Source: Bacteroidales bacterium
Lineage (GTDB): Bacteria; Bacteroidota; Bacteroidia; Bacteroidales; Marinilabiliaceae
DNA: 34,447 nucleotides
NCBI GenBank assembly: GCA_024401365.1
Contig: JAKSLE010000025.1
Span: 1 to 34,447, forward strand
Direction: 5' to 3'
A program made the translations under genes and the position numbers. The notes under the pieces are model-generated. The model was not told the DNA's origin, searched no databases, and saw nothing but the letters and a program-made list of their open reading frames with translations. Positions 3,337 to 34,447 of this stretch are shown here, piece by piece (the first letter of the stretch is position 1; the number at the start of each line of letters is the position of its first letter).

Positions 3337-4102
3337 AAAAGGCATTGATAAGATACAAGGAGACACCTGCCGGTTATCTGAGTGAAACAGATGAGGGATA
3401 TTCACAATTGTCGGGTTATGGGGCGACTACATTTTTAAGCCGCAGAGCAACAGGTTTGATCAGTTGCCTGAAAATGAAGACCTGACGATGCATTTGGCTG
3501 AAATAGCCAAGATAAAGGTAGTGCCTCACTGCCTGATAAGAATGAAAGACGGTTCACTAGGCTATCTGACTCGCAGAATAGATCGTACAGTGAAAGGAGA
3601 GAAGATTGCAATGGAAGATATGTGTCAGTTGACTGAACGGCAGACAGAACACAAGTACAAGAGTTCGTATGAGCAGATAGCTAAAGCAATAAGACAATAT
3701 TCATCTACACCACAACTGGATGTGACTAATTTCCTTGAAGTAGTCTATTTCTCATGGCTCACTGGCAACAACGACATGCATCTTAAAAACTTTTCCCTCT
3801 ATTGTCCTGCCAATGATTATCGGCTTACGCCTGCCTATGACATGCTTAATGTAGCCATTGCCAACCCTAAGGATGACGAGGAACTGGCGCTGACGTTAAA
3901 TGGTAAAAAAAAGAGGATCAAAGACACTGATTTCGAGAAGGCATTCGTTACATGTGGGATATTGCCAGGCATTTTTGAGAACATCAAATAGAAATACCTG
4001 CGCCTACTGCCCAAATTCCTCGTCGCAATAGATGATTCATTCCTCAATGCCGAGCAGAAAGATAATTACAAGCAACTATTGGCTGAGAGACTTGGCAGAT
4101 AG
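3333..4102 (+). pseudogene. hipA: hipA toxin kinase, decayed (deletion, frameshift, stop)
   Basis: The ATG at 3333 starts a clear HipA N-terminal segment (MKKALIRYKETPAGYLSETD), but that frame ends at TGA 3483 after 50 residues. The HipA-C kinase begins in another frame near 3422 with GDYIFKPQSN, keeps the catalytic loop GNNDMHLKNFSL and the LTPAYDML segment, meets an in-frame TAG at 3989-3991, and continues in the same frame as LLPKFLVAIDDSFLNAEQK to a natural end at 4102. Most of the N-terminal domain and the beginning of the kinase lobe (roughly 100 residues or more) are missing between the two parts. A full HipA is about 420 residues. A TTG at 3464 could still open a 175-aa kinase fragment, but it would lack the nucleotide-binding lobe. 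HipA is a Ser/Thr kinase whose known E. coli target is glutamyl-tRNA synthetase; this copy should be inactive. Confidence 0.88.
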
Positions 4103-4137
4103 AAAGTAGTAAGAAATTGTATTTAATATATAGTTAG

Positions 4138-4174
4138 AGCCACTCTCTTGATGGGGAGTGGCTTTCTTTTTTGT
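4138..4174 (+). terminator. Terminator after the hipBA locus
   Basis: The 8-bp stem AGCCACTC (4138-4145) / GAGTGGCT (4156-4163) is followed by a T-rich run to 4174. It closes the hipBA unit. Confidence 0.75.
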
Positions 4175-4238
4175 GGAGATTTGTTTTGATTTGTTTTTTT
4201 TTTACAAACTTTGCATGGAATATTTAAATGTATAAAAT

Positions 4239-5105
4239 ATGAATAGACTTTTTACACTTTTTGCTGCCCTTTTGGTGGGTGTTGCGGCTTCGGCACAACT
4301 TCATATATTTGAAGCTTTAAATGCGAATAACAATTTTGCTCTAACTAAATGTAATATGTATGAAGGTGATACATATTGGGACGTTGCGTTATTTTATGAT
4401 TTAAATGGGAAAATTTCGGAAATGACAAGCAGTTACGAATGCGAGGAGCATGGCAGAGATGTGTATAATAGAACTTACCAATACGACGAGAAAGGGAATT
4501 TGACAAGTGAAGTGGAGCTTATGGGAAAAAATGAGGAATGGGAAATGAAATCTCTATACGAAAATAATTATGAAATGGGGATTTTGACAGGTTATGTAAT
4601 AACAAGTTATGACCATGGTGATTATGTGACAACTGAAACCCACACGTTGACATATGACGGAAACGGTAACATTATAAAGGATGAAATAAATTGTATTGGC
4701 GAGTGGGTTCATTCAAATACAGAATTATTTGAGTATAATAGCAAGAATATTATTACATTTTCAACATCATATTCTGATACAGAACGCTACACTTATGATG
4801 AAAACGACCGATTGATACAAGTAGAACATGGTTGTGTAGAGAACGACTGTGATGTTATCATTGAGAAAATAACATACAATGCTGACGGCACAGAGGCAGT
4901 TGGCAAGCATTATGAGGCAGATGGTGTGACACTTAAGACAGACAAGACTGACAGCAAGTATTTCTTCACAAAGAAGACGGCAACACCTTCAAGACGTACG
5001 GAGCTTGACCATGTTGGCGCATACAACTTCAAGACTGTGGAGAACGGTCAGATTGTCATTGTCAGGGACGGAGAGAAGTTCGACATCTCGGGACGAAAAT
5101 TGTAA
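4239..5105 (+). CDS. Secreted YD-repeat-like protein
   Basis: A 288-residue protein with a clear signal peptide (MNRLFTLFAALLVGVAASAQ, cleavage near 20). The mature part consists of irregular beta repeats built on Y-D-x-N/K-G-N/K-I/L (YDLNGKISEM, YDEKGNLTSE, YDGNGNIIKD, YDENDRLIQV), similar to YD/RHS-type or MORN-like beta strands found in secreted Bacteroidota proteins. It ends in ENGQIVIVRDGEKFDISGRKL, which looks like the first half of a T9SS sorting domain, cut short. It is probably periplasmic or at the surface. No enzymatic motif is visible. The AT-rich N-terminal two thirds change to a more GC-rich C-terminal part near 4900, which may mark a composite gene. The function is unknown. Confidence 0.7.
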   Translation: MNRLFTLFAALLVGVAASAQLHIFEALNANNNFALTKCNMYEGDTYWDVALFYDLNGKISEMTSSYECEEHGRDVYNRTYQYDEKGNLTSEVELMGKNEEWEMKSLYENNYEMGILTGYVITSYDHGDYVTTETHTLTYDGNGNIIKDEINCIGEWVHSNTELFEYNSKNIITFSTSYSDTERYTYDENDRLIQVEHGCVENDCDVIIEKITYNADGTEAVGKHYEADGVTLKTDKTDSKYFFTKKTATPSRRTELDHVGAYNFKTVENGQIVIVRDGEKFDISGRKL

Positions 5106-11100: not shown

Positions 11101-12639
11101 TTATTTGGCAATAAGTTTAATGGAACTCTCTTTTCTGTTGCCGTAGCGTATCACAAATATCAATAGTTTATTGGTCCACTTTGAGGTGTTTACATCTAGC
11201 GTATTTTGCCCATCTGTTTTAATCGTGTAGAGCATACGACCGTCGCTGCTGTATACCTTTACTTCGGTTATACTGTCGGCTGTAATCGTCACACTTCCAC
11301 AATGCCTCGAAACGTCATATCCGCTGTCGCCAACCACAGTCGTAACACTGCTCTCTGTCGAATTTATATGCCTACCAGTCATGACTAATGTCCCTGTGTT
11401 GTCGGGGTCTAATAGTTCTTTTAATGAATAATACCCCTTGGCCTTAACATCCCACGCCTTGGCTAGCGACGAGAAATAGTCATTTTGCGGTGTCTTGCAG
11501 TTTGCCTTGCCTCCCGATAGTATACCTATTATCTTACGATCGTTGTTCCATAATGCCGATCCCGAGGAACCGCCCTCTGTTGTGCCTTGATCCCATAGGT
11601 TGACTTTATAGTGTACGTTTTTCTCAAAACTTCCGCCAGCAGGGGGAGAGTCCATCCCAGAATAGTCGCCATAGCCTATATCTGTGCTTACAGATACCTT
11701 TTTGACATCTCCCCATGGATGGTGAATGCATTTATATGTCTCATTCGATACTATATCATTCCTGATATCCCATCCTGCCCAATATGGATCTACTTCAAAT
11801 TTAGGAAGCTTATTTAGCGTAAATACGGCTATGTCGTAACTTGGCAAATAACAGAGTAGCTCATCCTTGTAACATAGGTCCACTTTCTCTTTAGAGGGAT
11901 GCTCAAAGTTTGTACATAAATCTGTCTCAAAACCAAATAGAACATTGACAGCATAATTCGAATTGGTGTCAAAAACGTGGGCAGCCGTAATAATGTATGG
12001 CTGCATGTCTTCACTGGTAGTGTTTATCAATTGCCCAGTTCCAAGATGTGTGCCTCCTACTATAAGCCTGCAGACGCTTTTCTTGGTATCTATAATGTCT
12101 TTGTCACATACAACGTTGACTTCACACCTGCCCGACGCCCTGTATTGCGTGTCTTGTCCATTCGAACTTGAACTCGTATTGAATGGCGAACCAGCATCTG
12201 CTATCTTGATAAAGCCGCTTGTGACGTACTCAATGTCAATCTTTGCTTGCTTGCCATAGTATCGTACACTTATCTTGTCTCCTCCAACGGGTAGAGGAAG
12301 CAATCCTTGGTTAACATAATCTTCTCGTCTATACGTCCGTGTAGCAAAATTTCCAATCACAAGTACGCTGTCAACCAATTTTTCGTCAATTCCCTTAATA
12401 TAGCATCCCATGTTCTTGGCTCCTTTCGAAATGAAAGTGACCACGCTGTCTCTTTTCAGAGCGACATTCGTATCTATCCTGTCAGCAAATTGAATAGGCC
12501 TATCTTCTAGATCTTTGACCATGTCCAATATCCGAATATCGCTGTTAAAGCTTCTGGCAGAGGGTAGTAGTACAATCTGCCCATAGGCTGTCAACGTAAA
12601 TAGTGCAAATAATGCTGTATATATATACTTCTTGAACAT
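11101..12639 (-). CDS. Secreted trypsin-like serine protease with T9SS tail
   Basis: A 512-residue protein when started at ATG 12639 (MFKKYIYTALFALFTLTAYGQ, a signal peptide); the frame opens 42 bp earlier but that would precede the signal. An N-terminal beta region (about 20-165) leads to a chymotrypsin-fold domain with the triad His221 (ITAAHV), Asp269 (LPSYDIAVF) and Ser359 (GGSSGSALW), similar to bacterial lysyl-endopeptidase-type enzymes. The last 70 residues (VKVYSSDGRMLYTI ... SSIKLIAK) match the pattern of a T9SS type A sorting domain, so export through the outer membrane is likely. Several Cys could form disulfides. Specificity is not deducible. It lies upstream of menA-pepP on the same strand. 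Confidence 0.88.
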   Translation of the reverse strand: MFKKYIYTALFALFTLTAYGQIVLLPSARSFNSDIRILDMVKDLEDRPIQFADRIDTNVALKRDSVVTFISKGAKNMGCYIKGIDEKLVDSVLVIGNFATRTYRREDYVNQGLLPLPVGGDKISVRYYGKQAKIDIEYVTSGFIKIADAGSPFNTSSSSNGQDTQYRASGRCEVNVVCDKDIIDTKKSVCRLIVGGTHLGTGQLINTTSEDMQPYIITAAHVFDTNSNYAVNVLFGFETDLCTNFEHPSKEKVDLCYKDELLCYLPSYDIAVFTLNKLPKFEVDPYWAGWDIRNDIVSNETYKCIHHPWGDVKKVSVSTDIGYGDYSGMDSPPAGGSFEKNVHYKVNLWDQGTTEGGSSGSALWNNDRKIIGILSGGKANCKTPQNDYFSSLAKAWDVKAKGYYSLKELLDPDNTGTLVMTGRHINSTESSVTTVVGDSGYDVSRHCGSVTITADSITEVKVYSSDGRMLYTIKTDGQNTLDVNTSKWTNKLLIFVIRYGNRKESSIKLIAK

Positions 12640-12665
12640 TCTATCCTTAAATACCGTTTCCTTTA

Positions 12666-12673
12666 CAAAGATA
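12666..12673 (-). promoter_or_regulatory. Putative -7 box of the protease promoter
   Basis: Read on the minus strand this is TATCTTTG (TAnnTTTG), 26 bp before the protease start at 12639. It supports starting the protein at the signal peptide rather than at 12681. Confidence 0.45.
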
Positions 12674-13203
12674 GTGAACAATTCAACACCATAGTGCTTA
12701 TTTGGGAGTGTTAACTATCAATTTGATAGCATTTTTGGGTAGGGTAGAGGTGTATACTTGTATGTTTACTGTTGTTTTGTCTGCTTTGTTGCATGTAAAC
12801 ACGTGTAACCGTGCATTATATACGCCATTTTCTCTATATACATATATACAATAAACACTAAGTTAGAGCACATAAAGTACACATTATCAGTCTTTTAATA
12901 GCATGGACATAAAGTAAATATGTAGACATATAGTGTATATTTATTCAGATAGGGTATTGTTAGTATCTATGCATATAGATAAGTATCTAATAATCAGTTG
13001 TTTGTCTAATTTACCTAAATCTCTTTTATATGGTAATTGTTCTAATTGGCTGATTTTCAATGCTTAGTATAAGTACCCTCTAATTGGCTTTTATTAACCT
13101 ATTTTTTATTCGTTAACATAGTTGCTGTATATTTTAACTGACGGATTATCAGCTAGTTACGCAAAAGAAGCTGGTGCTGTATTCTTGTTTTTGACAATAA
13201 ATA
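12674..13203. other. Long AT-rich intergenic region, no gene seen
   Basis: I find no convincing open frame on either strand. It contains GTATAC at 12752, GTTTAC at 12764 and GTAAAC at 12795, the edge of the hexamer field described below, then sequence of very low GC with many TATA-like words. It separates the protease operon from the XRE regulator gene, both on the minus strand. Confidence 0.5.
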
Positions 13204-13236
13204 AAGCACCAATTAAGTCTCTCTTAACTGGTGCTT
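13204..13236 (-). terminator. Hairpin terminator downstream of the XRE gene
   Basis: AAGCACCAATTAAG (13204-13217) pairs with CTTAACTGGTGCTT (13223-13236) over 14 bp with one mismatch. On the minus strand it is followed by a T-rich stretch. It lies about 90 bp after the XRE stop codon. Confidence 0.65.
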
Positions 13237-13327
13237 ATAGCTATGAATAGCTTATGTGATCTTACCTAACCTATTATTATATTTTTGCGCTGTCTTGATG
13301 TTGTCCTTATTATAGCCTTGTTGTTCC

Positions 13328-13819
13328 TTATTCTGGCCTGTAATCCTTGAAAGTGCCGTCTGTATATAGTATAATTATCTTCTCTATCTGCTTGTTTGCA
13401 CGATTCTCAGGTGCTTTGTCTTCTTCTTTCTTGTTTATATGCACAACTCGCTTTGTACGTGTCACTTGTGGCATCTCTTCATTTGGCTCCTGAGCTGTAG
13501 GCTGCTCTTCTGTCTGTTCTTCGTTTTCTTGCGAGAAGAGGGTCGATTCTGGAGCAACGTGCAACTGTTGTGGCTGATTGAAGAGCGTGGCTTCTTCGTC
13601 GCTTTGTGGGGCATTCCCAGTACCGTATACCAACCAATTGATATCCACGCTAGGAAACGCTCTCTGTATGGCCTCAATGGTCTCTGGCTTGAAGCTGCCT
13701 CCTCGTCCTCCTTCCGACATAATATGGGATATAGTCATCTTTGAAACGCCTATTTTTACCGCTAGTTCGCTCTGATTTATGCCGTATAGTTGCATTAAGG
13801 TTCTTAAACGTTCTTTCAT
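13328..13819 (-). CDS. XRE-family regulator with acidic linker
   Basis: A 163-residue protein with an N-terminal HTH (about 1-62: LRTLMQLYGINQSELAVKIGVSKMTISHIMSEG, then a helix and NWLVYGTG), typical of phage-repressor-like XRE domains. A long Gln/Glu/Pro-rich disordered linker follows (about 68-118), then a basic patch (TRTKRVVHINKK), and it ends with a short conserved-looking strand (KIIILYTDGTFKDYRPE). It is a DNA-binding regulator with no peptidase or ligand domain. It is transcribed divergently from pyrK-pyrD, and the shared 270-bp region is filled with GTAAAC/GTATAC words, so autoregulation and control of the pyr genes are likely. It lies at the heart of the hexamer field but contains only one such word itself. 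Confidence 0.85.
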   Translation of the reverse strand: MKERLRTLMQLYGINQSELAVKIGVSKMTISHIMSEGGRGGSFKPETIEAIQRAFPSVDINWLVYGTGNAPQSDEEATLFNQPQQLHVAPESTLFSQENEEQTEEQPTAQEPNEEMPQVTRTKRVVHINKKEEDKAPENRANKQIEKIIILYTDGTFKDYRPE

Positions 13820-13827
13820 TTTTAGGT

Positions 13828-14039
13828 GTATACTTTGGTTTACCCTGCAAAGATAAACATATTATCTCGTGTTTACAAGTCTCTATGTGTTAAATAATTG
13901 TTTATTAAATACATGTTTACAACTCTTGATTAATCAAGTAAACTTGTATGGTAAACTATAGTATACATTGAGTTGTATTATTGTAAACGTATATGGTTGT
14001 GTTTACTGATAATTATTCTAATCTTTGAGTTAGGTATAC
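13828..14039. promoter_or_regulatory. Divergent control region with ten GTwwAC operators
   Basis: Ten hexamers start at 13828, 13838, 13871, 13915, 13938, 13951, 13961, 13983, 14001 and 14034. The minus-strand promoter of the XRE gene is visible as a -7 box TATCTTTG (complement of 13848-13855) with a CTTG -33 about 20 bp upstream. GTTTAC at 13871 overlaps that -33, and GTTTAC at 13838 lies just past the -7. On the other side GTATAC at 14034 sits between the -33 and -7 of pyrK. Confidence 0.65.
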
Positions 14040-14058
14040 AAATAAAATCGTACCTTTG
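14024..14058 (+). promoter_or_regulatory. pyrK promoter
   Basis: TTTG at 14024-14027 and TACCTTTG at 14051-14058 match the Bacteroidota -33 and -7 elements, with a spacer of 23 bp, slightly longer than the usual 19-21. The ATG of pyrK follows at 14090. Confidence 0.6.
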
Positions 14059-14089
14059 CATGATAATTTGATTCTAATAACAATAAGAT

Positions 14090-14875
14090 ATGCATAAACG
14101 TTATTCGACGGACTTCAAGGTCGCTGATATCCGTACCGTGAATAGTAGCTGCTATCAGCTCGTTCTCCAACATCCGGATACCTTGCCAGAGGTCGCTCCA
14201 GGTCAGTTTGTTCAGGTTCAACTGCCTGATAGCGCTACTTCTTATCTTCGACGCCCTATATCTATTCATGACGCTGATTTTAAGGCTAATACAATGACTC
14301 TCCTTATCCGAAGAGTCGGAAATGGTACCGAGTTGTTGTCTCACGTAAAGCCTGGAGATACTGTCAATCTTTTGTATCCTCTTGGAAATGGCTTCAATTT
14401 GGATACTAAACAGATAGGTAATTCTCCTTTGCTTATCGGCGGTGGCGTGGGTATTGCCCCTCTTTTTATGGCTGCTAAGCATCTGAAGGCTGTCGGCGCT
14501 AATCCTACAGTTCTTTTGGGCGCTCGTAATGTCGAGGATCTGCTCAAAAAGGATGATTTCGCAGCTGTTACTACTACTGAGTGTACAACTGAGGATGCGT
14601 CTTTTGGTACTAAGGGGTTTGTTACTGACCATGTTTACATGAAGGATGAGCTTAAGAGGTTTACTTCTATTATTGTTTGTGGTCCTATGCCTATGATGCG
14701 TGCTATTGCTCGTGTGGCTGAGGCTAATAATATCCCTTGTCAGGTCTCTCTCGAAAATAAGATGGCTTGCGGTATCGGTGCTTGCCTTTGCTGTGTGACC
14801 GAGACTATAGATGGTCATAATACTTGTGTTTGTACAGGTGGTCCTGTGTTTGATTCAAAGAGCGTAAAATGGTAG
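14090..14875 (+). CDS. pyrK: Dihydroorotate dehydrogenase B, electron-transfer subunit
   Basis: A 261-residue FAD and [2Fe-2S] protein that passes electrons from PyrD to NAD+ in de novo pyrimidine synthesis. The FAD-binding motif is [10 protein letters not shown] (Arg54-Ser58). The NAD-binding Rossmann part starts with [12 protein letters not shown] (about 114-125) and includes [10 protein letters not shown]. The C-terminal cluster ligands are Cys227, Cys232, Cys235 and Cys248 (CGIGACLCC and CTGGPVF). Length is normal. It overlaps pyrD by 7 bp (ATGGTAG), so the two subunits are translationally coupled. It is the first gene after the operator-rich region shared with the XRE regulator. Confidence 0.95.
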
Positions 14876-15786
14876 ATCTTAAAGTAAACTTGGGGAACAA
14901 TCTTGTCCTCAATAATCCAGTAATGACCGCATCTGGTACTTTCGGATATGGTCTGGAATATGACGATTTTACTGATGTTGATCGTCTCGGTGGTATCATC
15001 GTTAAAGGTACAACTCTCAACCCTCGCGAGGGTAACGCCTATCCTCGTCTTGCCGAGACTCGCCAGGGTATGATCAATGCCGTGGGTTTACAGAATAAGG
15101 GCGTTGACCATTTTTGTAAGGTTATTTACCCTGAATTGAAGAAGTATACCAAGACTAAGGTGCTGGTAAACGTCTCTGGTAGTTGTATCGAGGATTATGT
15201 GGCTTGCGCCGAACGTATCGCTGCTCTTGACCATATTCCAGGTATCGAGCTGAATATCTCTTGCCCTAACGTTAAACAGGGTGGTATGTCTTTCGGTACA
15301 GTTCCTGAAATGGCTGCTAAGGTCGTGGAGGCTGTACGTAAAGTTTACCCTAAGCATCTTATCGTTAAGATGACTCCTAATGTTACGTCTGTAGTGGATA
15401 TCGCTAAGGCTATCGAGGGGGCTGGCGCTGATAGCGTCTCTTTGGTAAACACATTCTTGTCTATGGCTATCGATATCAAGACTCGACGCCCAATATTGTC
15501 TACTATTACTGGTGGTATGTCGGGCGCAGCTATCAAACCTATCGCTCTCCGTATGGTATGGCAGGTCGCTAATGCTGTCAAAATACCTGTAGTGGGCCTT
15601 GGCGGTATCAGTAGCGCTTCTGATGCTATCGAGTTTATTATCGCTGGCGCTTCTGCTATCGAAATAGGTACTGCCAACTTTATCAACCCAAATATCGGTA
15701 ACGAGGTGGTGGATGGTATAGCCGATTACTTGGCAGCTAATAATATGAAGTCGGTTAGCGAACTTCGTGGTAGCTTGATTATCTAG
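14869..15786 (+). CDS. pyrD: Dihydroorotate dehydrogenase B, catalytic subunit
   Basis: A 305-residue FMN-containing TIM barrel of the class 1B type that oxidises dihydroorotate to orotate. Visible family features are [13 protein letters not shown] near the N-terminus, the substrate loop region [43 protein letters not shown] and the phosphate-binding end [29 protein letters not shown]. Class 1B enzymes use a Cys base; Cys130 or Cys137 in the region [14 protein letters not shown] is the candidate. It forms a heterotetramer with PyrK. It contains six of the GTAAAC/GTTTAC/GTATAC words. It is followed after 28 bp by the DUF4105 gene. Confidence 0.96.
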
Positions 15787-15814
15787 CTTTTTAGTAAACT
15801 CTCAGTAATAAACT

Positions 15815-16987
15815 ATGAGGTGCTTCTTACTAATTATTGTTAGTATACTTTTAGGCGTGTTTACTACAGTTAGGGCTGATGATGAGCCTTTTGAATTGAG
15901 TAAACACGCTCAATTTAGTTTACTAACGTGTGGTCCGGGCGAGGAGTTGTATACTGCTTTTGGTCATACTGCTATTCGTTTACAGGATGATTCAGTAAAC
16001 ATCGATATCACGTTCAACTATGGTACTTTCGATTTTAACACGCCTAATTTCTACCTGAAATTTATGAATGGCGAACTGGATTATCTCTTGTCTGTATCTC
16101 AAACCGAACGCTTTTTTAAATCGTATCAACGCGAAAATCGTGAGGTACGCGAGGCTGTAATTCTTCTTAGCCCTGAGGAGAAGTCCGATTTGTGGGAGCG
16201 CTTGTATACTAATATGTTGCCTGAGAATCGTGCTTATAGGTACGACTTCTTTTTCGATAATTGCGCAACTCGCGTGAGGGACTTGCTATTCAGTATCAAG
16301 GGATTACCTCTCGATTATGAGTCTACTGGCGTGACTTATCGCGAACTTATCCACGAGAAAAATACCTCTGATAGCTGGTCGGCTCAGGGTATCGACCTCC
16401 TCTTGGGCGCTAATACCGATTCTATAGCTTCCAAAAATGGTAGAACTTTCTTGCCAGATTACCTCGAAGCTATGTGCTTGGAAAAGGGTATCATAGATCA
16501 ACCTAAAACTATATTGCCTCAGGGTGGTTTTGTGGAGGAAGAGACGGTAAACATTCCTAATTTGTTGTTCTTTTCGTTGTTTATACTTACAGTTGCTTAC
16601 ACTGTTTACCAATTTGTAAGGAGGTCAACTGATAAAGTGTATGATTATGTCTTGTTTACTGCCACTATTTTGCTTTCTTTGTTGTTCGCTTACATGTGGT
16701 TCGTCTCTAGCCACCTTATTTGTAAGTGGAACTGGAACGTATTGTGGGCTTCCCCATTGCTTATTTTATTGCTAATTGACATAATTCGCGAGAATCCGAT
16801 AAAACGTATCGTAGTCAACATTTGTTTGCTAGACGCCTCTCTCGTCGCGTTTATTATGTTAAGTGCTTTTTCAGTTGAATCCTTCTCTAATATAGCATGG
16901 TTCTCTGCTGGAGCTATCGCAGTGCGTATCAACTATATTCTTTACTATACTTGTAGACAAAGTATATGCACATTTAGCAAAAAATAA
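15815..16987 (+). CDS. DUF4105 membrane protein
   Basis: A 390-residue envelope protein. It has a signal peptide (1-21, MRCFLLIIVSILLGVFTTVRA), a periplasmic DUF4105 domain (about 28-240) and five hydrophobic helices in the C-terminal 140 residues. The domain has the conserved His51 (TAFGHTAIRL) and Cys150 (YDFFFDNCATRVRD), which resemble a thiol-hydrolase pair of an NlpC/P60-like fold. DUF4105 is related to the N-terminal part of the maturation factor for Bifidobacterium lacto-N-biosidase. Its function in Bacteroidota is not established. It has an unusually high density of GTwwAC words, about thirteen in 1.2 kb, and lower GC than pyrD. It probably shares the pyrK-pyrD transcript. Confidence 0.87.
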   Translation: MRCFLLIIVSILLGVFTTVRADDEPFELSKHAQFSLLTCGPGEELYTAFGHTAIRLQDDSVNIDITFNYGTFDFNTPNFYLKFMNGELDYLLSVSQTERFFKSYQRENREVREAVILLSPEEKSDLWERLYTNMLPENRAYRYDFFFDNCATRVRDLLFSIKGLPLDYESTGVTYRELIHEKNTSDSWSAQGIDLLLGANTDSIASKNGRTFLPDYLEAMCLEKGIIDQPKTILPQGGFVEEETVNIPNLLFFSLFILTVAYTVYQFVRRSTDKVYDYVLFTATILLSLLFAYMWFVSSHLICKWNWNVLWASPLLILLLIDIIRENPIKRIVVNICLLDASLVAFIMLSAFSVESFSNIAWFSAGAIAVRINYILYYTCRQSICTFSKK

Positions 16988-16997
16988 CAAAACCTAC

Positions 16998-17029
16998 TTT
17001 GTATATAATAGTTGAGTGTCGTAATTTTG
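16998..17029 (+). promoter_or_regulatory. aroQ promoter
   Basis: TTTG (16998-17001), a 20-bp spacer and TAATTTTG (17022-17029) form a textbook Bacteroidota promoter, 26 bp before the aroQ ATG. Confidence 0.75.
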
Positions 17030-17055
17030 CACAATCAAAATAAGATCTTTAATCG

Positions 17056-17490
17056 ATGAAAGTGCTAATTATCAATGGTCCTAACTTGAACCTCCTAGGC
17101 GTACGTGAGCCCGGCATCTATGGTGCAAGAGGATTTGAAGAATATCTTGCTGAACTTAACAGCAGATATGCTGACGTGTTATCTATAGAGTACTTTCAGA
17201 GTAATCACGAAGGTAGTATTATCGACAAACTACACGAGAATGGCTTCGGCCAGGTAGATGGTATCGTCCTCAATGCTGGTGCTTATACCCATACTTCAGT
17301 AGCTATTGCCGACGCTATCTCAGCTATCAATACTCCTGTGATAGAGGTACATATATCAAACGTACATAGGCGCGAGGAGTTCCGTCGCCATTCTTATATT
17401 TCACCTTCATGCGTCGGTGTTATAGCTGGTTTCGGCCTCGATTCTTATAGATTAGGTATCGAAGCTATCCGTGAGCGCGCCAAAAAATAA
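17056..17490 (+). CDS. aroQ: 3-dehydroquinate dehydratase, type II
   Basis: A 144-residue type II dehydroquinase, which removes water from 3-dehydroquinate in the shikimate pathway. It forms dodecamers in the cytoplasm. Family motifs are INGPNLNLLGVREPGIYG (including the catalytic Tyr23 and flexible loop), FQSNHEGSIID, LNAGAYTHTSVAI and EVHISNVHRREEFR (His for substrate binding). Length is typical. It has its own promoter, and pyruvate kinase follows 39 bp downstream. The two could be cotranscribed, but pyk has much stronger codon bias. Confidence 0.97.
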   Translation: MKVLIINGPNLNLLGVREPGIYGARGFEEYLAELNSRYADVLSIEYFQSNHEGSIIDKLHENGFGQVDGIVLNAGAYTHTSVAIADAISAINTPVIEVHISNVHRREEFRRHSYISPSCVGVIAGFGLDSYRLGIEAIRERAKK

Positions 17491-17529
17491 TTCATACAAA
17501 AGACAATAAAAGACTTTAAAGCATACAAA

Positions 17530-18963
17530 ATGACAAAGAAGTTAACCAAAATCGTAGCTACGATTGCAGATAACAAGTGTGATGTAGAGTTCATCCGTTC
17601 TCTACACAATGCTGGTATGAACGTTGTTCGTATGAACACAGCACACCAGATGCCAGAGACATCAGAGGAGATCGTTAAGAACGTTCGTAAGGTCTCTAAC
17701 AAGATTGCTATCCTCGTTGATACAAAGGGCCCAGAGGTACGTACAGTTGCTGGCGACGGTCCTATCGAGTTCGTAGCAGGTAACAAGATTATCGTTAAGG
17801 GTGAGCCAAATACAAAGTCTACTAACGAGTGCCTTTGCGTTTCTTACGAGGGCTTCGTAAACGACCTCGAGGTTGGTAAGCGTATTCTTATCGACGATGG
17901 TGATGTTTCACTCGTTGTTGAGGAGAAGAAGGCAGATCACCTCGTATGTTCTATCGAAAACACAGGTTCAATCAACGGCCGTAAGTCAGTTAACGTTCCA
18001 GGCGTTTCTATCAAGCTCCCTTCATTGACAGAGAAGGACCGCAAGTTCGTTGAGTGGGCTATCAAGGTTAAGCTTGACTTCATTGCACACTCTTTCGTTC
18101 GTTCTGCAAAGGACGTTAAGGAGATTCAGGATATTCTCGACGCACACAACTCACCAATCAAGATCATCTCTAAGATTGAGAACCAGGAGGGTGTTGATAA
18201 CATCGACGAGATCATCGAGGCTTCATACGGTATCATGGTAGCTCGTGGTGATATGGGTATCGAGATTCCTTACCAGAAGGTTCCATTCATTCAGCGTGCT
18301 CTTATCCGTAAGTGTATCGAGGCTAAGAAGCCAGTTATCGTGGCTACTCAGATGCTTCACACAATGATCAAGAACCCTCGTCCTACTCGTGCCGAGATCT
18401 CGGATATCGCAAACGCTATCTATAGCCGTACCGACGCTATCATGCTTTCAGGTGAGACAGCTTACGGTAACTACCCAGTTGAGGCTGTTACAGTAATGAA
18501 CAATATCGCTCGTGAGTCTGAGTCTTACAAGGATACTCGTAACGATATCCCAGTTCCTTCTTCAAAGAACGAGGTTACAACTTACTTGGCTGAGACTGCT
18601 GTAGGTGCTTCTCGCAACCTCCCAATCAAGGCTATCTTGACAGACTCTTTCACAGGTAAGGCTGCTCGCTATATCGCTGCTTTTCGTTCTGCAGTTCCTG
18701 TATACGCATTGGCATATGAGGAGCGTGTAGCACGTGAGCTCTCTCTCTCATTCGGTGTATTTGCTGAGTATATCGGCGAGGGTCACAACAAGAGCGAGAT
18801 GTTGAAGCAGACTATCGAGCGTCTCTTGGCTAACAACGAGCTCTCTAATTCAGACCTCGTTTCTTACATCGGTGGTTCATACGGTATCGGTGGTGGTACA
18901 ACATTCGTTGAAATCCTCACTGTAGAAAACCTCCTCAAGAAGATCGATAGCTACATGAACTAA
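17530..18963 (+). CDS. pyk: Pyruvate kinase
   Basis: A 477-residue glycolytic enzyme that converts phosphoenolpyruvate and ADP to pyruvate and ATP. The barrel and B domain are seen from KIVATIADNKCDVEFIRSL through VRMNTAHQ, LVDTKGPEVRT, KIENQEGVDNIDEI, VARGDMGIEIP and the signature KKPVIVATQMLHTMIKNPRPTRAE. The C-terminal regulatory domain ends at VENLLKKIDSYMN. The sequence uses a narrow set of codons (GAG, AAG, CGT, ATC), which suggests very high expression. A strong terminator follows. Confidence 0.97.
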   Translation: MTKKLTKIVATIADNKCDVEFIRSLHNAGMNVVRMNTAHQMPETSEEIVKNVRKVSNKIAILVDTKGPEVRTVAGDGPIEFVAGNKIIVKGEPNTKSTNECLCVSYEGFVNDLEVGKRILIDDGDVSLVVEEKKADHLVCSIENTGSINGRKSVNVPGVSIKLPSLTEKDRKFVEWAIKVKLDFIAHSFVRSAKDVKEIQDILDAHNSPIKIISKIENQEGVDNIDEIIEASYGIMVARGDMGIEIPYQKVPFIQRALIRKCIEAKKPVIVATQMLHTMIKNPRPTRAEISDIANAIYSRTDAIMLSGETAYGNYPVEAVTVMNNIARESESYKDTRNDIPVPSSKNEVTTYLAETAVGASRNLPIKAILTDSFTGKAARYIAAFRSAVPVYALAYEERVARELSLSFGVFAEYIGEGHNKSEMLKQTIERLLANNELSNSDLVSYIGGSYGIGGGTTFVEILTVENLLKKIDSYMN

Positions 18964-20759: not shown

Positions 20760-21053
20760 ATGACAAAAGCAGATATTGTTAACGAAGTAGCTAAAGGTAC
20801 CGGAATTGAGAAGGTAATGGTTCAGAAGATTATTGAGGCTTTCATGGACTCAGTTAAGACTTCTATGGAGAACGGTAATGATGTATTCCTCCGTGGATTC
20901 GGTAGCTTCGTTATCACAAAGCGTGCAGCTAAGACAGCACGAAACATTTCAAAGAATACAACTATCGTAATCCCAGAGCGTTTCGTTCCTGTGTTCAAGC
21001 CTTCTAAGGAGTTCGCCGAAGAAGTTACTAAGAGCAACGCAAAGAAGAAGTAA
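20760..21053 (+). CDS. HU-family DNA-binding protein
   Basis: A 97-residue HU/IHF-type nucleoid protein that bends and compacts DNA as a dimer. It begins MTKADIVNEVAKGTGIEKVMVQ, has the family signature around FLRGFGSFVITKRAAKTARNI (about 42-64), and ends VFKPSKEFAEEVTKSNAKKK. The beta-arm segment NISKNTTIVIPERFVPVFKPS replaces the usual NPxTG core with SKNTTIVIPE, so the arm tip lacks the intercalating NP proline in its standard context. This is common in Bacteroidota HU paralogues. It lies upstream of the small basic protein and RNase G. Confidence 0.95.
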   Translation: MTKADIVNEVAKGTGIEKVMVQKIIEAFMDSVKTSMENGNDVFLRGFGSFVITKRAAKTARNISKNTTIVIPERFVPVFKPSKEFAEEVTKSNAKKK

Positions 21054-23029: not shown

Positions 23030-23206
23030 ATTCGATCATTCGCACGTGCCACTACCCTCATTATCAGGATATTAACTCTAAGAATTTGTATTATGTTAAC
23101 CAGGGTGTCCGAATAACATAGGGGAGTGCTATATTCACTTCATTATTCTCCTATTTCACCATAGTTAATAAATATAAACGCTCTTCTTTATAAAACACAA
23201 ATTGTA

Positions 23207-28992: not shown

Positions 28993-31900
28993 TTATTCAG
29001 CATACTTCTTGAAATTCTCAGCTTGCTCTATCACCTTGTTGTATACTGCCTCTGGATGGTCCTTAGCTGGCGGATAACCATGCATGGCCATAATAACTAC
29101 AAGGTCAAACTGCATCTCTGCCATAATATCGGCACGTTTGAAGCAGTCGGTGTAGTGGCTCTTGTCTGCAATTTTGGCTTTCATCTCTTTGGCAATCTCT
29201 ATCATCTTGTCTTCTGGATAGTCGAAGCCTCTTTCGTCACGTACTGACTTAAGGATATCAAAGAATGCTTTCTCTTCATAATCAATACCCATCGCCTCGT
29301 GGCTCTTACGCTCCTTCTCCAGCTCTTCCATCATCTTCTTTATCTTGTCGACAACCTCTTGCATTGCCTTGCTGACCTCCTTCGCATCGTCACTGCGGTC
29401 GTTATACTCGCGAATAATATCATTCAGTCGGTTTGTGAACTCGACAGACTTTACCTTATTGACCTTGCCAAACTCAGATATCTGCTGCTTTATCAAACGC
29501 TCAAGCATACGCAGACGTATATTAGGTAATGGAATCTTATCTATCAATAAAATATGGTCTTTATTGAATATATCTAAATCGCCATTTGTATCTTCAACTA
29601 TCTTTATTACCTCTTCTACCCCACTGCTTTGCAACGCCTCGGCAACCAGTTCGCGCACCTTGGCGTTCATTTCTGCCACGTCAGGAGCCTCGCCCTTTGT
29701 CATCTTGAAAACAATAGAACGTACGGCTGTGAAGAACATTACCTTCTCTCGAGCATCCTTATTTAACTTATCGCTGGATGAGCACATATTAAATGCCTGT
29801 CGCATACGCTTTGCATGGCGCATATAAAGGTTTTTGCGCTCCTCTTCTTCGATTACAAAGTTGGCGCCGCCATTTAATGTCTGTAATTGCGCAAGGGCAT
29901 TCTTGCCGAAGAAACCGGAATAGTCGTACTTGTGCATAATATTATCAAGCACATCTATCTCATCCTTTACTATCGCTACTAGTTCTTCAATGCCCTCTGT
30001 TGGGTCGTCATCCTCTCCGTCGCCTCCATATTGCTTAAGGGCCTTATTCATCTTGCGCTTTATGCCTAGGTAGTCCACTACAAGACCCTTCTCCTTGCCT
30101 GGACATACTCTGTTGACGCGACTGATTGTCTGGATAAGTGTATGTTTTTGCAATGGCTTATCTACGTACATCGTGTCCAGACTAGGTACATCAAACCCTG
30201 TGAGCCACATATCAACAACTATCACTATCTTGAAGTTGGAGTCTTGCTCCTTGAACTGCACAGCCCATTCTTGTCTGTCTGCCCTATTGCCAAGGAGAGT
30301 TGCCAGTTCTGGCACATCGTCCTTATTGCTGGTCATTACCATCTTTATTCGCTCTATTGGCAACAGCTTGTCGTTGTGACTATTCTTGGCCTCTGGGGCA
30401 CATGGCAACTTAACAGCCCATTCTGGTCGCAATGCTACTATACGTTTATATAGTTCAAATGCTATCTCGCGTGATGTACACACCACCATAGCCTTTCCGC
30501 AAACTGTGGCACCTTCAGCTATTCGCTGCTCATAGTGAGCCACCATATCTTCTGCCACAGCCTGCAGGCGCTTTGGATCTCCTATGATAGCTTCCATTGT
30601 TGCACTCTGCTGCTTGCTCTTGTTTATCTGCTCTTCTGTACTACCCTGCTCTTCGCACTCCTCGTAGTATTTCTCAATGGCAGCAAGTTTGTCATTGTCG
30701 GCAAATACTTTAGCAGCTCGACCTTCGTAGACTATCCTGACCGTGATACCGTCGTTCACCGAATCCACCATGGTGTATTTGTCTATCACGCCACCGAATA
30801 CTTCTATGGTCTGGTCAACAGGCGTACCAGTGAAGCCTACGTATATAGCATTAGGCAGCGACTGGTGCAGATACTGAGCAAAGCCGTATGTCTTCTTCAT
30901 GGCAGTAGCTATGCCGTCTTCGTTGAAGACTATCTTGGTGGTCTCTTCTAGGTTTGTCTGCGTGCGGTGTGCCTCGTCGCTGATGCAGATAATATTATTT
31001 CTCTTCGAGAGCAGGTCTATATCTTCACTGAACTTCTGTATGGTGGTCAGAAACACGCCACCGCTCTCACGGCCTTCTAGCTTCTGTTTCAGAGCCTCAC
31101 GACTGTCTATCTGTTCTATTACTTCGTCTCCAATAAACTTCTTGGCACGTATAAATTGTCCCGAGAGCTGGTCGTCTAGGTCTGTACGGTCTGTAATGAG
31201 CAGTATGGTAGGCGACCCCAGTTTCTGCGAGCGCATAAGCATACGGCTCAGGAAAAGCATAGCGAGGCTCTTGCCACAACCGGTAGCACCAAAATATGTA
31301 CCGCCTTTATGTCCGCCCTTGTCGTGCTCCTGAAGTATATTGGCATAGAGCATTGTAGCCGCAAAATACTGCGGATAGCGGCAGACTATCTTCTCTTCTT
31401 TGGTGGATGTGTCTGGGAAATAGATAAAATTCTTTATCACCTCCAGCAGTCGCTCCTTGCGGAATAGACCGTGAATCATGGTAAAGAGCGAGTCTATGCC
31501 ATTGCTTGGCTTGTCTTCTGGCTCTACTCGATTCCATGCGTAGAAATACTCGTATGGAGTAAATAACGAACCGAATTTATTCTGTACCCCATCGCTAATG
31601 ACTACGAAAGCATTGTAGCGGAAGAGGCTGGGAATATCTTTGCGGTAGCGGACCGTAATCTGAGTAAAGGCATCTTTTATGGTACAGTGCTCTTTCACAG
31701 CGCTCTTGAACTCCATAACTACAAGCGGAATACCGTTTATGTAGATTATGGCATCTGGACGGCGGTTGCATACCTCAACAATCTCTACCTGATTGACAGC
31801 CTTGAATATATTCGCCTTTGGATTCTCGAAGTCTATCAGCCTTATCCACAGATTCTGCTTTGTCTGATCTTCACGTTTCAATGGGAATCCATCCACCAGC

Positions 31901-32145
31901 ATACCAAACACACGGCGGTTCTCATCATAGAGGCTCTGAGTCTTCTGAGCCTTTAGCGCGAGAATAACTTGCTGAATTTCAGCAGGAGTAATATCGGCAT
32001 ACTTAGTTTTTAGATATGCCTCAATATCCTCTACAAGTAGAACCTCCGCCAGGTTCTTATGTATCTGCTCGCCAAGCTTATGTGTGTATCGCTCCTGCTC
32101 CAGCAGCTGCATTATGGCCGTCTCTAAGGTGGACTCGTTGAACAT
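28993..32145 (-). CDS. hsdR: Type I restriction enzyme, R subunit
   Basis: A 1050-residue motor-nuclease subunit that translocates DNA and cuts unmethylated targets together with HsdM and HsdS. The N-terminal PD-(D/E)xK nuclease has Asp131, Glu145 and Lys147 (RPDAIIYINGIPLVVMEFKSA). The SF2 motor has Walker A GATGCGKS (286-293), motif Ia LLITDRTDLDDQL, motif II DEAH (390-393), motif III GFTGTPVDQ and motif VI ISRVNRV. A helical C-terminal region (about 760-1050) mediates assembly. Length is complete and no frame damage is seen. It is the last gene of the restriction operon, separated from the rest by the RAYT and a nuclease gene. Confidence 0.96.
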   Translation of the reverse strand: MFNESTLETAIMQLLEQERYTHKLGEQIHKNLAEVLLVEDIEAYLKTKYADITPAEIQQVILALKAQKTQSLYDENRRVFGMLVDGFPLKREDQTKQNLWIRLIDFENPKANIFKAVNQVEIVEVCNRRPDAIIYINGIPLVVMEFKSAVKEHCTIKDAFTQITVRYRKDIPSLFRYNAFVVISDGVQNKFGSLFTPYEYFYAWNRVEPEDKPSNGIDSLFTMIHGLFRKERLLEVIKNFIYFPDTSTKEEKIVCRYPQYFAATMLYANILQEHDKGGHKGGTYFGATGCGKSLAMLFLSRMLMRSQKLGSPTILLITDRTDLDDQLSGQFIRAKKFIGDEVIEQIDSREALKQKLEGRESGGVFLTTIQKFSEDIDLLSKRNNIICISDEAHRTQTNLEETTKIVFNEDGIATAMKKTYGFAQYLHQSLPNAIYVGFTGTPVDQTIEVFGGVIDKYTMVDSVNDGITVRIVYEGRAAKVFADNDKLAAIEKYYEECEEQGSTEEQINKSKQQSATMEAIIGDPKRLQAVAEDMVAHYEQRIAEGATVCGKAMVVCTSREIAFELYKRIVALRPEWAVKLPCAPEAKNSHNDKLLPIERIKMVMTSNKDDVPELATLLGNRADRQEWAVQFKEQDSNFKIVIVVDMWLTGFDVPSLDTMYVDKPLQKHTLIQTISRVNRVCPGKEKGLVVDYLGIKRKMNKALKQYGGDGEDDDPTEGIEELVAIVKDEIDVLDNIMHKYDYSGFFGKNALAQLQTLNGGANFVIEEEERKNLYMRHAKRMRQAFNMCSSSDKLNKDAREKVMFFTAVRSIVFKMTKGEAPDVAEMNAKVRELVAEALQSSGVEEVIKIVEDTNGDLDIFNKDHILLIDKIPLPNIRLRMLERLIKQQISEFGKVNKVKSVEFTNRLNDIIREYNDRSDDAKEVSKAMQEVVDKIKKMMEELEKERKSHEAMGIDYEEKAFFDILKSVRDERGFDYPEDKMIEIAKEMKAKIADKSHYTDCFKRADIMAEMQFDLVVIMAMHGYPPAKDHPEAVYNKVIEQAENFKKYAE

Positions 32146-32457
32146 AAGGTTACTTGTTATTTATTTAATTGCTGACTGGCAACAATTCTTTCTGCTCCAT
32201 GACAACTGGTATCGGATATGTATTTATTTAATTCATCCGTTTGCCAATTGGCAACGTTGTTTTCTATGTATCCCGCTATGCGGTTCAGTTCATTTTGGTC
32301 ACGCACAATACGATCGTAAAATCGCGCCTGCCAAGCAAATATAATATTTTTTTCATTTGCGTAATGGGTTATGCGTGCCTTCAGTCCGCGAATAACTGTT
32401 CCTAAACATTTTTGCAACATGGGGTTATTATTTCCTGTAATTCCACCCCCTGTACCT

Positions 32458-32509
32458 GTAGAGACGCGATTCATCGCGTCTCTTATCGCGTCTCTTATCG
32501 CGTCTCTAC
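32458..32509. repeat. REP palindrome with triplicated arm inside the RAYT gene
   Basis: GTAGAGACGCGAT, the loop TC and ATCGCGTCTCT form the REP. Two further 12-bp copies of the right arm, TATCGCGTCTCT, follow at 32484 and 32496, before the closing AC. Because the length is a multiple of three, the RAYT frame stays open and reads RDAI repeats. Confidence 0.88.
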
Positions 32510-32685
32510 CACGCACACCGTCTCTAAAATCACAATTATCCACCCCGTCAATCACCACAATCGCATGAATATGGTTCGGCATAACCACAAACAATGGTAT
32601 TTCAGCATACGGATAATGCGTTTTCACGTTTACAAATTGTTCGTGGGCATATTGTCCTATTGGGGATAATTGCATTTGTGGTTCG

Positions 32686-32713
32686 GTAGAGACGTTGCGC
32701 CCCACGTCTGTAC
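32686..32713. repeat. REP variant inside the RAYT gene
   Basis: GTAGAGACGT (32686-32695) pairs with ACGTCTGTAC (32704-32713) with one mismatch, around the 8-nt loop TGCGCCCC. It shares the outer GTAGAGACG with the main REP but has a different centre, so it is a second REP subtype. Confidence 0.7.
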
Positions 32714-32916
32714 AATGACAACACGTAATTTCCCCGAAAAAATGTTCCCTATTTTTGGTGCAGATGGTTACAAAATACACACCTCCATCATACCCATGCC
32801 AATTGGCACGGGCGGACGGGATTCGATATGTATTTTGAAATCTGTCCATTAAATCATCGTTTTACACATTAACACCATTATTTGTTCCACATACACCGAT
32901 TGTTTTTCATCGTACC

Positions 32917-32944
32917 GTAGAGACGCGATTCATCGCGTCTCTAC
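32917..32944. repeat. Perfect REP palindrome upstream of RAYT
   Basis: The arms GTAGAGACGCGAT (32917-32929) and ATCGCGTCTCTAC (32932-32944) match perfectly around a TC loop. It lies between the RAYT start and the stop of the nuclease gene, and is the intact reference copy for the other REPs in the window. Confidence 0.9.
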
Positions 32945-32983
32945 AAAACACGTAAACAATTTAATTTATATGATTGTAATAAT

Positions 32984-33829
32984 TTATTTAGATACAACCT
33001 TTAATGGTATTGCATTATTTAATACAAAACATAATTTTTCAAGATCTCTATTAATCATGTTGTCTGGACAAAACAAAACCCCATATAATATAAAATCTTC
33101 AAAATCTTTATACCCAGTTATTTCAATTGTCGGATAATTTTTTATGACAGCTTCTCTTATTTGCAGGTTTTCCTTTTCAAAAACATGAATTCTAGCATTA
33201 GAATCATCCGTCAATATATTATTGTTCTGATATTCTATCAATAACGGAATTGTATTTATAGAATCATTTTTATCCCAAAATTCTAAATACATCCATTCTT
33301 TTTTCAAGCCGGCATCCTTTAAGTCTCCGCCTCTCGCATATAACGTAGCTGGAGCAAAACCACGATACGTTCCGTCTACAATCCAACCAAATGGAGGTTT
33401 TATAGTAACACCATGGCCTCCTTGATATGCTATTGCACCATAAGATTGAAATTGCATTAGATCTTTAATGCTCAAAATATCAACCTCAAAATTATCCTCT
33501 CCCAAATGAGCTCTACTAATTGCAGACTTAGAGAATGCTTTTTGTGTTATTAACATGCCTTTATTAGCCCCTATATCCTTTAACATCGATATACAAGACT
33601 CTACCTCTTTTATGTCAACATTTTTGTTATAAAATTTTGCGTCTACAACTATTGTTTCTCCGTTTTTTAATTTTATCCAAACGTCTACTTGTCTACTTGT
33701 ACCTGAATACTTGCCTTTTATATGATAGTCTTTAATTATTTCTACTGCATCTCTTTCATAAATCCTCAAACATTCGTCGTAGACACTATCTTCATATAAT
33801 TTCCACTTGGGGTTATTAGAAGTTTTCAT
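32984..33829 (-). CDS. Mrr-like restriction endonuclease with unknown C-terminal domain
   Basis: A 281-residue protein. Its N-terminal half (about 10-125) has the Mrr_cat PD-(D/E)xK pattern: helix ECLRIYERDAVEIIKDYHIKGKYSG, then RQVDVWIKL (Asp49), then TIVVDAKFYNK (Asp63, Lys65), then a helix and strand with ANKGMLITQKAFSKSAISRA. The C-terminal half (about 140-281: PPFGWIVDGTYRGFAPATLYARGGDL, LEFWDKNDS, IEITGYKDFEDFILYGVLF) is not a domain I recognise. Its GC content is clearly lower than that of hsdR. It sits between hsdS and the RAYT-hsdR pair on the same strand, 60 bp after hsdS. A role as an accessory DNA nuclease in defence is inferred from motif and place. Confidence 0.72.
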   Translation of the reverse strand: MKTSNNPKWKLYEDSVYDECLRIYERDAVEIIKDYHIKGKYSGTSRQVDVWIKLKNGETIVVDAKFYNKNVDIKEVESCISMLKDIGANKGMLITQKAFSKSAISRAHLGEDNFEVDILSIKDLMQFQSYGAIAYQGGHGVTIKPPFGWIVDGTYRGFAPATLYARGGDLKDAGLKKEWMYLEFWDKNDSINTIPLLIEYQNNNILTDDSNARIHVFEKENLQIREAVIKNYPTIEITGYKDFEDFILYGVLFCPDNMINRDLEKLCFVLNNAIPLKVVSK

Positions 33830-33889
33830 ACTAGATTCCTTTTTTTGAGTTTTTACAAGTATTGGCTATCCTCTCATAAACTAATCTCG

Positions 33890-34447
33890 CTACGCCATCA
33901 CCATCGACAGCATTTCCGTTAATTTATTATTTTCTTGTTCTTTAGTTCTTATCATTGAAAAGATTTGTGATACTTTCCCATTGAAGATCTTTAAAGATTT
34001 ATCGTCTGGTACTAATACTTCAATACCACACATATTATCTTGATTGATTTTAGGTTGAGCAGCACCTGTAACCAAATCCGCAACGTTTTTCTTTTTTAAA
34101 GCCAAATACAGATATTCTGTAGATAAATCTCCTTTACCTTGTAAAATATGTGCATGATTATTTAACCAGAACTTACCATAAACATATTGTAAAGCAGGGA
34201 ACCCGTTTTCATCAACAACATTAGCGCCATCTTCCGAAAACAACAAATAAATTCCATCAAACAAGAAAGAATCAATATAATCAACAATAGACATTGCTCC
34301 ATAATAAGGATACTCGCCTTTCATCCCTGCACGTTCTTCAGAACTTAATGGTTTGCGCTTATAATCAAGAATCTCGCACACCTCCCCCAGCGTCCCCATT
34401 CTCCACCCCTCCGGCAGCCTCTCAACATCAATCCCATCCACAAACAT
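33890..34447 (-). CDS. hsdS: Type I restriction enzyme, specificity subunit (partial)
   Basis: The last 185 residues of an S subunit, running off the window. The visible part starts at the linker FVDGIDVERLPEGWRMGTLGEV, which normally joins the first half to the second target-recognition domain. A TRD follows (YPYYGAMSIVDYIDSF, FSEDGANV, FWLNNHAHIL, AQPKINQDNM), then the C-terminal conserved helix (IFSMIRTKEQENNKLTEMLSMVMA). The Met at the window edge is probably internal, because HsdS proteins usually have WFVD in this linker. The TRD recognises half of the bipartite DNA target; HsdM should lie beyond the edge. GC is low, as is usual for exchangeable TRDs. Confidence 0.9.
   Translation of the reverse strand: MFVDGIDVERLPEGWRMGTLGEVCEILDYKRKPLSSEERAGMKGEYPYYGAMSIVDYIDSFLFDGIYLLFSEDGANVVDENGFPALQYVYGKFWLNNHAHILQGKGDLSTEYLYLALKKKNVADLVTGAAQPKINQDNMCGIEVLVPDDKSLKIFNGKVSQIFSMIRTKEQENNKLTEMLSMVMA

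Follow-up and report, generated by a model that had tools for sequence, protein, structure and literature searches.

A field of short DNA words around an XRE-family regulator gene near a dif-like site in Bacteroidales, and its possible role at the chromosome terminus

The word field and the genes around it

The stretch of DNA considered here (the window) comprises positions 1 to 34,447 of contig JAKSLE010000025.1 (GenBank assembly GCA_024401365.1), from a bacterium of the family Marinilabiliaceae (Bacteroidales). It contains a gene for a 163-residue XRE protein (13328–13819, minus strand) and, on the plus strand, pyrK (14090–14875), pyrD (14869–15786) and a gene of the Lnb_N / 5TMH_Lnb (DUF4105) type (15815–16987), with a site resembling the XerCD recombination site dif (23074–23101, plus strand) lying further on, flanked by genes for RNase E/G and a PfkB protein. 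Our subject is a field of three hexamers, GTAAAC, GTTTAC and GTATAC, which occurs in both orientations around the XRE gene (12752–16659), and its relationship to the XRE protein and the dif-like site.

The field holds 34 word starts (11 of GTAAAC, 14 of GTTTAC and 9 of GTATAC), against 13 in the remaining 30.5 kb of the window (47 in all), and on either side it thins into shoulders whose words reach out to 11091 and 17862. An earlier note on this DNA, made from the letters of the window, had put these figures at about 34 and about a dozen, and had located the words in intergenic DNA and within pyrK, pyrD and the DUF4105 gene; our counts and positions agree with both statements. The XRE–pyrK intergenic region (13820–14089) is the densest part, with 10 words between 13828 and 14039; pyrK contains two words, pyrD six and the Lnb gene 11, and within coding DNA they fall in all three reading phases. 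The fourth word of the form GTWWAC, GTTAAC, does not belong to the field, being found once in 12752–16659 and nine times outside it. In a Poisson comparison of all hexamers, GTAAAC (strands merged) had by far the lowest probability (p ~1e-25), with 25 copies in 12701–17000 against 6 in the window minus 12001–18000.

The best 3.9 kb of the window has 33 words; 20 stretches of the same genome (395,184 bases) averaged 2.97 per 3.9 kb and never exceeded 8. The genome as a whole has 1105 copies of GTAAAC in 3.05 Mb. A scan of all of it for close pairs (GTAWAC..GTAWAC, with at most 30 bases between) placed 12 of the 70 listed rows within the field (12752–15983), the others being scattered over the genome. 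No second field, and none of the similar peaks at many loci that the earlier note thought would tell against it, was seen in the 395 kb sampled or in the close-pair scan, and there was no word peak at two XRE paralogue regions of the same genome (contigs C17 and C56). The 34 words are of mixed orientation (11 forward, 14 reverse and 9 palindromic) and follow no fixed spacing; orientation was also mixed in 12 other fields counted, except at locus L040, where five words all point one way. Polar fork-trap sites and KOPS-like skewed words were ruled out by this lack of orientation bias or fixed spacing, and longer repeats as carriers of the words were ruled out by flanking positions that each hold less than 0.2 bit.

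The XRE protein has a helix-turn-helix (HTH) like that of 434 Cro (residues ~1–68), a variable linker predicted with low confidence, and a conserved C-terminal beta-hairpin motif ending F/L-Y-x-D-G-T-F-x-x-Y-x-P. An alignment of 30 such proteins showed the same arrangement, with the ending F-Y-x-D-G-T-F-x-x-Y-x-P in most. By domain cut-off (Pfam HTH_3, E 1e-6, 29.1 bits against a curated cut-off of 23 bits) and by its Cro/CI-like fold, the protein is a member of the XRE / HTH_3 DNA-binding proteins. Pfam found HTH domains only, with no MerR, MatP or ParB/Noc match, and NCBIfam gave no family at E 0.01; eight sequence matches in the PDB were, by name, HTH-type regulators, antitoxins, repressors and one designed DNA-binding protein. 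In an AlphaFold2 model (predicted template-modelling score 0.48) the mean predicted local distance difference test score was 78, with blocks of 83–96 over the first 70 residues, 55–77 in the linker and 80–89 where the hairpin strands lie (148–151 and 157–160). The closest solved folds, 434 Cro/repressor and SinR, match the HTH only (template-modelling score by target 0.73–0.82, none at E <=0.001).

Conservation of the field and selection on its words

A search at E 0.001 recovered the XRE gene from 46 of 61 relatives, and a profile search from 54 of the 56 genomes of the family (the match in G024 is weak and contains stops, and G071 and G081 have none). Around XRE–pyrKD, GTAAAC was enriched at p ~1e-6 or lower at 12 of 21 loci (the 20-kb loci of 20 relatives, and the window); a peak of this strength was missing at L042–L044 and L046–L049, which are of other genera, and at L050. 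The leading word is not everywhere the same: it is TGTAAA at L036, L037, L040 and L045, and GTGTAA at L050, and at L034 (genome G009) the field consists mainly of GTATAC (18 in, 1 out) instead of GTAAAC. The HTH encoded at L034 is also slightly different, and this HTH and its GTATAC field may be a co-evolving recognition pair. As to whether the peak follows the XRE gene, a check that the earlier note had proposed, it does so in relatives, and the field is retained whether XRE is divergent from or co-directional with pyrK.

The words within coding sequences were assessed at 13 loci (the window, L031–L041 and L045) by 500 synonymous shuffles of each gene's matched coding span, which altered neither the protein nor the codon usage; L035 was left out for Lnb because its matched span there does not form an open series of codons. 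These genomes are related, so that their counts are not independent; with that limit, 45 words were observed in pyrK against 13.8 expected and 42 in pyrD against 16.2 (13 genomes each), and 98 in Lnb against 26.8 (12 genomes), an excess of 2.6- to 3.7-fold that none of the 500 shuffles reached for any of the three genes. Four of five flanking genes had no excess in the same test (aroQ, 0 observed against 0.1 expected in five genomes; PK, 5 against 7.5 in five; M24, 0 against 2.3 in four; DUF4301, 1 against 2.8 in six). The exception was UbiA (11 against 4.0 in four genomes; 0/500 shuffles), where 10 of the 11 words come from L032 and L033, five each, and we take it that the shoulder of the field reaches UbiA in those two genomes. 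Aligned over the three genes, the words fell in all three phases and occupied 92 positions; 54 of these were used by one genome only, and the others were common to at most eight (again among related genomes), density being kept while individual sites turn over. The excess over synonymous shuffles rules out a codon effect as the source of the words, and supports, from sequence comparison, the view that they are selected as DNA and not as codons. The earlier note had argued for such selection and had suggested looking at synonymous sites in pyrD and the DUF4105 gene; there the excess of words is indeed kept, single positions apart.

Sites related to these words are found near XRE in other genera. 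At seven such loci, pooled words near XRE included GTTTACA (39 against 12), TACATA and ATGTAA, and the regions upstream of XRE carry an inverted TTACA..TGTAA. Over 27 loci (these seven and 20 more, which include loci from other families), 67 exact copies of TTACAnnTGTAA lie in a zone from −2 to +4.5 kb of the XRE start and two outside (0.387 against 0.005 per kb), and with one mismatch allowed the counts are 189 and 30, ratios somewhat flattered by the drawing of the zone from the profile of the same loci; at least one exact copy lies in the zone at 22 of the 27. In a single-locus test, the weak word TGTAA was enriched within 600 bases of the XRE start at p<0.01 in 13 of the 27. The 18 loci from other genera of the family have 1–5 exact palindromes each, and 2–16 with at most one mismatch; at the 14 loci of the window's type the spaced palindrome is nearly gone (two exact copies). 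The half-site TGTAA[AC] of the other genera nonetheless resembles GTAAAC of the window's genus, and the sharing of a GTAA half-site by palindromes in the XRE promoter regions of other genera makes the XRE protein the candidate reader of the words, as the earlier note had supposed.

Exact palindromes at XRE make up three of three in the genome of G034, 3 of 11 in G021 (the other eight lying outside a 3-kb cluster), 5 of 16 in G016, 3 of 13 in G019, 3 of 23 in G074 and 1 of 5 in G078. On contig C1 of G074, eight further exact copies of TTACAnnTGTAA lie on one side of XRE between 4.580 and 4.847 Mb, a span of ~270 kb, which is above the level of the rest of that genome.

A dif-like site and the replication terminus

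The dif-like site in the window was located with a weight matrix (match at 23080–23102, score 25.2) built from eight seeds, themselves taken from a dif-like sequence noticed near XRE loci; the window's own site was not among them, and its 28-bp limits are those that we presume from the usual layout of dif. The same matrix scored 17.1 at most in 20 sampled stretches of G021. Of 41 XRE loci, 25 have a site with a score of 23 or more; 14 of the 25 have at least 2.5 kb on both flanks, and at all 14 GC skew is higher before the site than after it as read, passing from plus to minus in 10. In the window the skew changes across the site from −0.03 to −0.08. In sequence and in skew, the site agrees with a XerCD dif site, which is 28 bp long with a conserved XerD arm and lies near a skew switch.

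A dif pattern searched in 66 genomes gave 139 matches in 60 of them. In 32 of the 66 a match lies within 20 kb of XRE, where 1.34 would be expected, a comparison that is partly circular in that the pattern was derived in part from sites near XRE loci; the figure drops to 25 of 59 when the seven seed genomes are excluded, and to 23 of 57 when G000 and G019, two further sources of the pattern, are excluded as well. The distance between XRE and the dif match is 4.9–10.3 kb in 29 of those 32 genomes. Exact matches to the pattern occur in 32 genomes, sharing a contig with XRE in 24 of them and lying no more than 20 kb from it in 20.

Longer contigs allow the locus to be placed on the chromosome. 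On the 4.1-Mb contig of G021 (20 stretches), GC skew is below zero as far as 1.92 Mb, above zero between 2.11 and 3.81 Mb, and below zero once more at 4.09 Mb; three exact parS-like sites lie at 2.097–2.112 Mb, and XRE, at 4.001 Mb, falls inside the plus-to-minus interval of 3.81–4.09 Mb. In G078 the plus-to-minus change lies at 1.52–1.80 Mb (XRE at 1.705 Mb) and in G074 at 4.43–5.04 Mb (XRE at 4.570 Mb; ten stretches each), finer stretches of G074 being negative from 4.48 Mb on. A parS-type origin array is ruled out by the position of the XRE locus in G021, in the skew switch opposite the parS-like sites. On contig C18 of G003, a dnaA domain (283182–283667) lies ~3 kb from XRE (279720–280286) and ~12 kb from a dif-like site (271395), so that dnaA seems to be at the terminus there.

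A terminus-marking array and its alternatives

At the level of sequence the array is established, as are the selection acting on it, its conservation alongside the XRE gene and its position by dif and the switch in GC skew. It is a conserved near-terminus feature in many Bacteroidales, and suggests an undescribed system that would mark or organise the chromosome terminus. It seems fairly probable that, in this order, the replication terminus is marked by an array to which an XRE-family protein binds. The XRE protein and the words would then form one site-specific DNA-binding system of the chromosome terminus, the protein binding many TGTAA(A)C-type half-sites across ~4–6.5 kb that include its own gene and lie near dif; in the window's genus, the palindromes TTACAnnTGTAA may have become ~30 dense 6-bp GTAWAC words. 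As a 6-bp word alone is too frequent, we propose that binding in this genus is cooperative. A nucleoprotein patch of bound XRE protein could mark the terminus, and the flexible linker and C-terminal hairpin might recruit a partner (the divisome, FtsK/XerCD or SMC) that handles the terminus at division; alternatively, they might hold sister termini together until dif recombination. A more specific version, which we put forward tentatively, as possible rather than probable, is that of a Bacteroidales terminus 'centromere', in which XRE protein coats a compact array near dif and, by its hairpin, ties the terminus to the machinery of division or of dimer resolution; the window's genus would use a density code of ~30 minimal 6-bp words, placed in part at synonymous sites of metabolic genes, with word number, and not any single site, under selection. 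The conservation of protein, site and place near dif makes the question directly testable in Bacteroides. The field is also a case of DNA words of a protein-binding type being maintained in coding genes by synonymous choice, single sites turning over while density stays constant.

MatP is a protein of the ribbon-helix-helix family, and the XRE protein belongs to another; in both systems, the one proposed here included, a DNA-binding protein is paired with a short multi-copy site confined to the terminus region. In Escherichia coli, matS is a 13-bp site with 23 copies over 800 kb (PMC3330122). The sites described here are likewise multi-copy and concentrated at the terminus, but they are packed into 4–6.5 kb near dif, partly in coding DNA, and a matS-like wide dispersal is not what we see, half-sites in G074 not being raised over ~420 kb around XRE. 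ZapT of Caulobacter, a MerR protein that prefers genome positions 1.3 to 2.2 Mb (PMC7858052), is similar to the system proposed here as a terminus-binding protein with a separate C-terminal partner-binding region; the XRE protein differs in its XRE/434-Cro-like HTH and compact array, and has no MerR match. From 434 Cro and CI, SinR and restriction–modification controller proteins, which share its HTH fold, the XRE protein is set apart by its added conserved C-terminal hairpin and by tens of words running through coding genes near the terminus. Those regulators act at promoters, on a small number of palindromic operators. ParB on parS, and Noc, form nucleoprotein patches on clustered sites that mark a chromosome region, but parS lies at the origin, and in G021 the parS-like sites (2.10 Mb) and XRE (4.00 Mb) are in opposite skew switches. 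The earlier note had compared the field with parS, matS and Noc arrays; given a locus near dif at the replication terminus, matS is the right functional likeness and parS the wrong one, so that the note's interpretation stands as regards selection and the association of the peak with XRE, and missed the terminus setting. Among the matches listed, no such terminus protein was found in the open-licence literature, an absence that is not proof, and the accessible parts of two papers on the Bacteroidetes terminus concern dif only (PMC3091885; PMC3025954).

Several observations weigh against a terminus-marking system, and some of them fit its main rival, in which XRE is a local autoregulator that also controls pyrKD and Lnb through many weak sites, the gene order that puts it near dif being inherited and without function. 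The site peak of other genera is strongest upstream of XRE, as in plain autoregulation. The pyrKD adjacency is widely conserved (pyrK is beside XRE at 33 of 41 loci), and where pyrKD is missing a divergent DHO_dh-type PyrD may stand in its place, as at L042 (G035, where the dif match is 41 kb from XRE) and L076 (G085), or a PyrD-like gene may lie ~2 kb off, as in G160. The link to dif is uneven: apart from the partial circularity already mentioned, none of the 13 genomes of genus g12 has a dif-pattern match within 20 kb of XRE (in G074, of this genus, a dif-like site scoring 25.4 lies at ~4.484 Mb, 86 kb away), and none of five genomes of the class with shorter XRE matches (G141, G160, G145, G142 and G122) has one on the XRE contig. 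A control word, AATGT (TGTAA reversed), likewise becomes more frequent just upstream of XRE in other genera (6.5 per kb against ~2–5 elsewhere; TGTAA reaches 11.3). The lack of a rise in half-sites around XRE in G074 comes from 21 stretches compared with 10 controls; exact palindromes there (seven in 16 stretches after the XRE locus, none in four before and none in the 10 controls) are too few to rely on. Finally, we infer specific DNA binding by the XRE protein only from the linkage of array and gene.

Local regulation nevertheless seems to us unlikely, since ~20 of the words in the window are in coding sequences, where they point both ways and are held against synonymous drift. It also fits poorly with XRE loci that lack pyrKD. 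Eight genomes of the class outside the family match the XRE profile over its full length, and two of them (G159 and G121) have pyrKD beside XRE; in the other six, which are from outside the order as well (G094, G110, G117, G123, G161 and G152), PyrD-like matches are weak and on other contigs, or absent, and the neighbours of XRE vary and are unrelated (ParA, M14 and M1 peptidases, proline dehydrogenase, enoyl-CoA hydratase, gyrA and DUF6580). These six keep near-palindromes, 25 in the zone and three outside, and five of them have a dif match on the XRE contig (at 16.9, 80.0, 46.1, 5.0 and 31.5 kb; G152 has none). A replication fork trap near dif, like Tus–Ter or RTP, would account for the position by dif and the skew switch; it is quite improbable, for polar sites flanking the terminus are not what the field presents, its words being of mixed orientation and, in the window, all on one side of the dif-like site. 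Very improbable, in our judgement, is a field read by some other protein (a nucleoid protein, methylase or SMC loader), with the XRE gene as a passenger: the indirect case for XRE binding leaves room for such a reader, and an HU-type gene is present at 20760–21053, but in relatives the peak and the XRE gene keep together, and in other genera the centre of the peak is immediately upstream of that gene.

A few further genes may be mentioned. In a distant relative (G094, locus L081), a ParA/MinD-type ATPase gene (76–957) lies near XRE. The window itself also has, at 3464–5105, an open reading frame with a HipA C-terminal domain and another with a weak RHS-repeat match, and at 28993–34447 type I restriction genes (HsdR, with a specificity subunit at the contig end) together with an Mrr-type nuclease gene.

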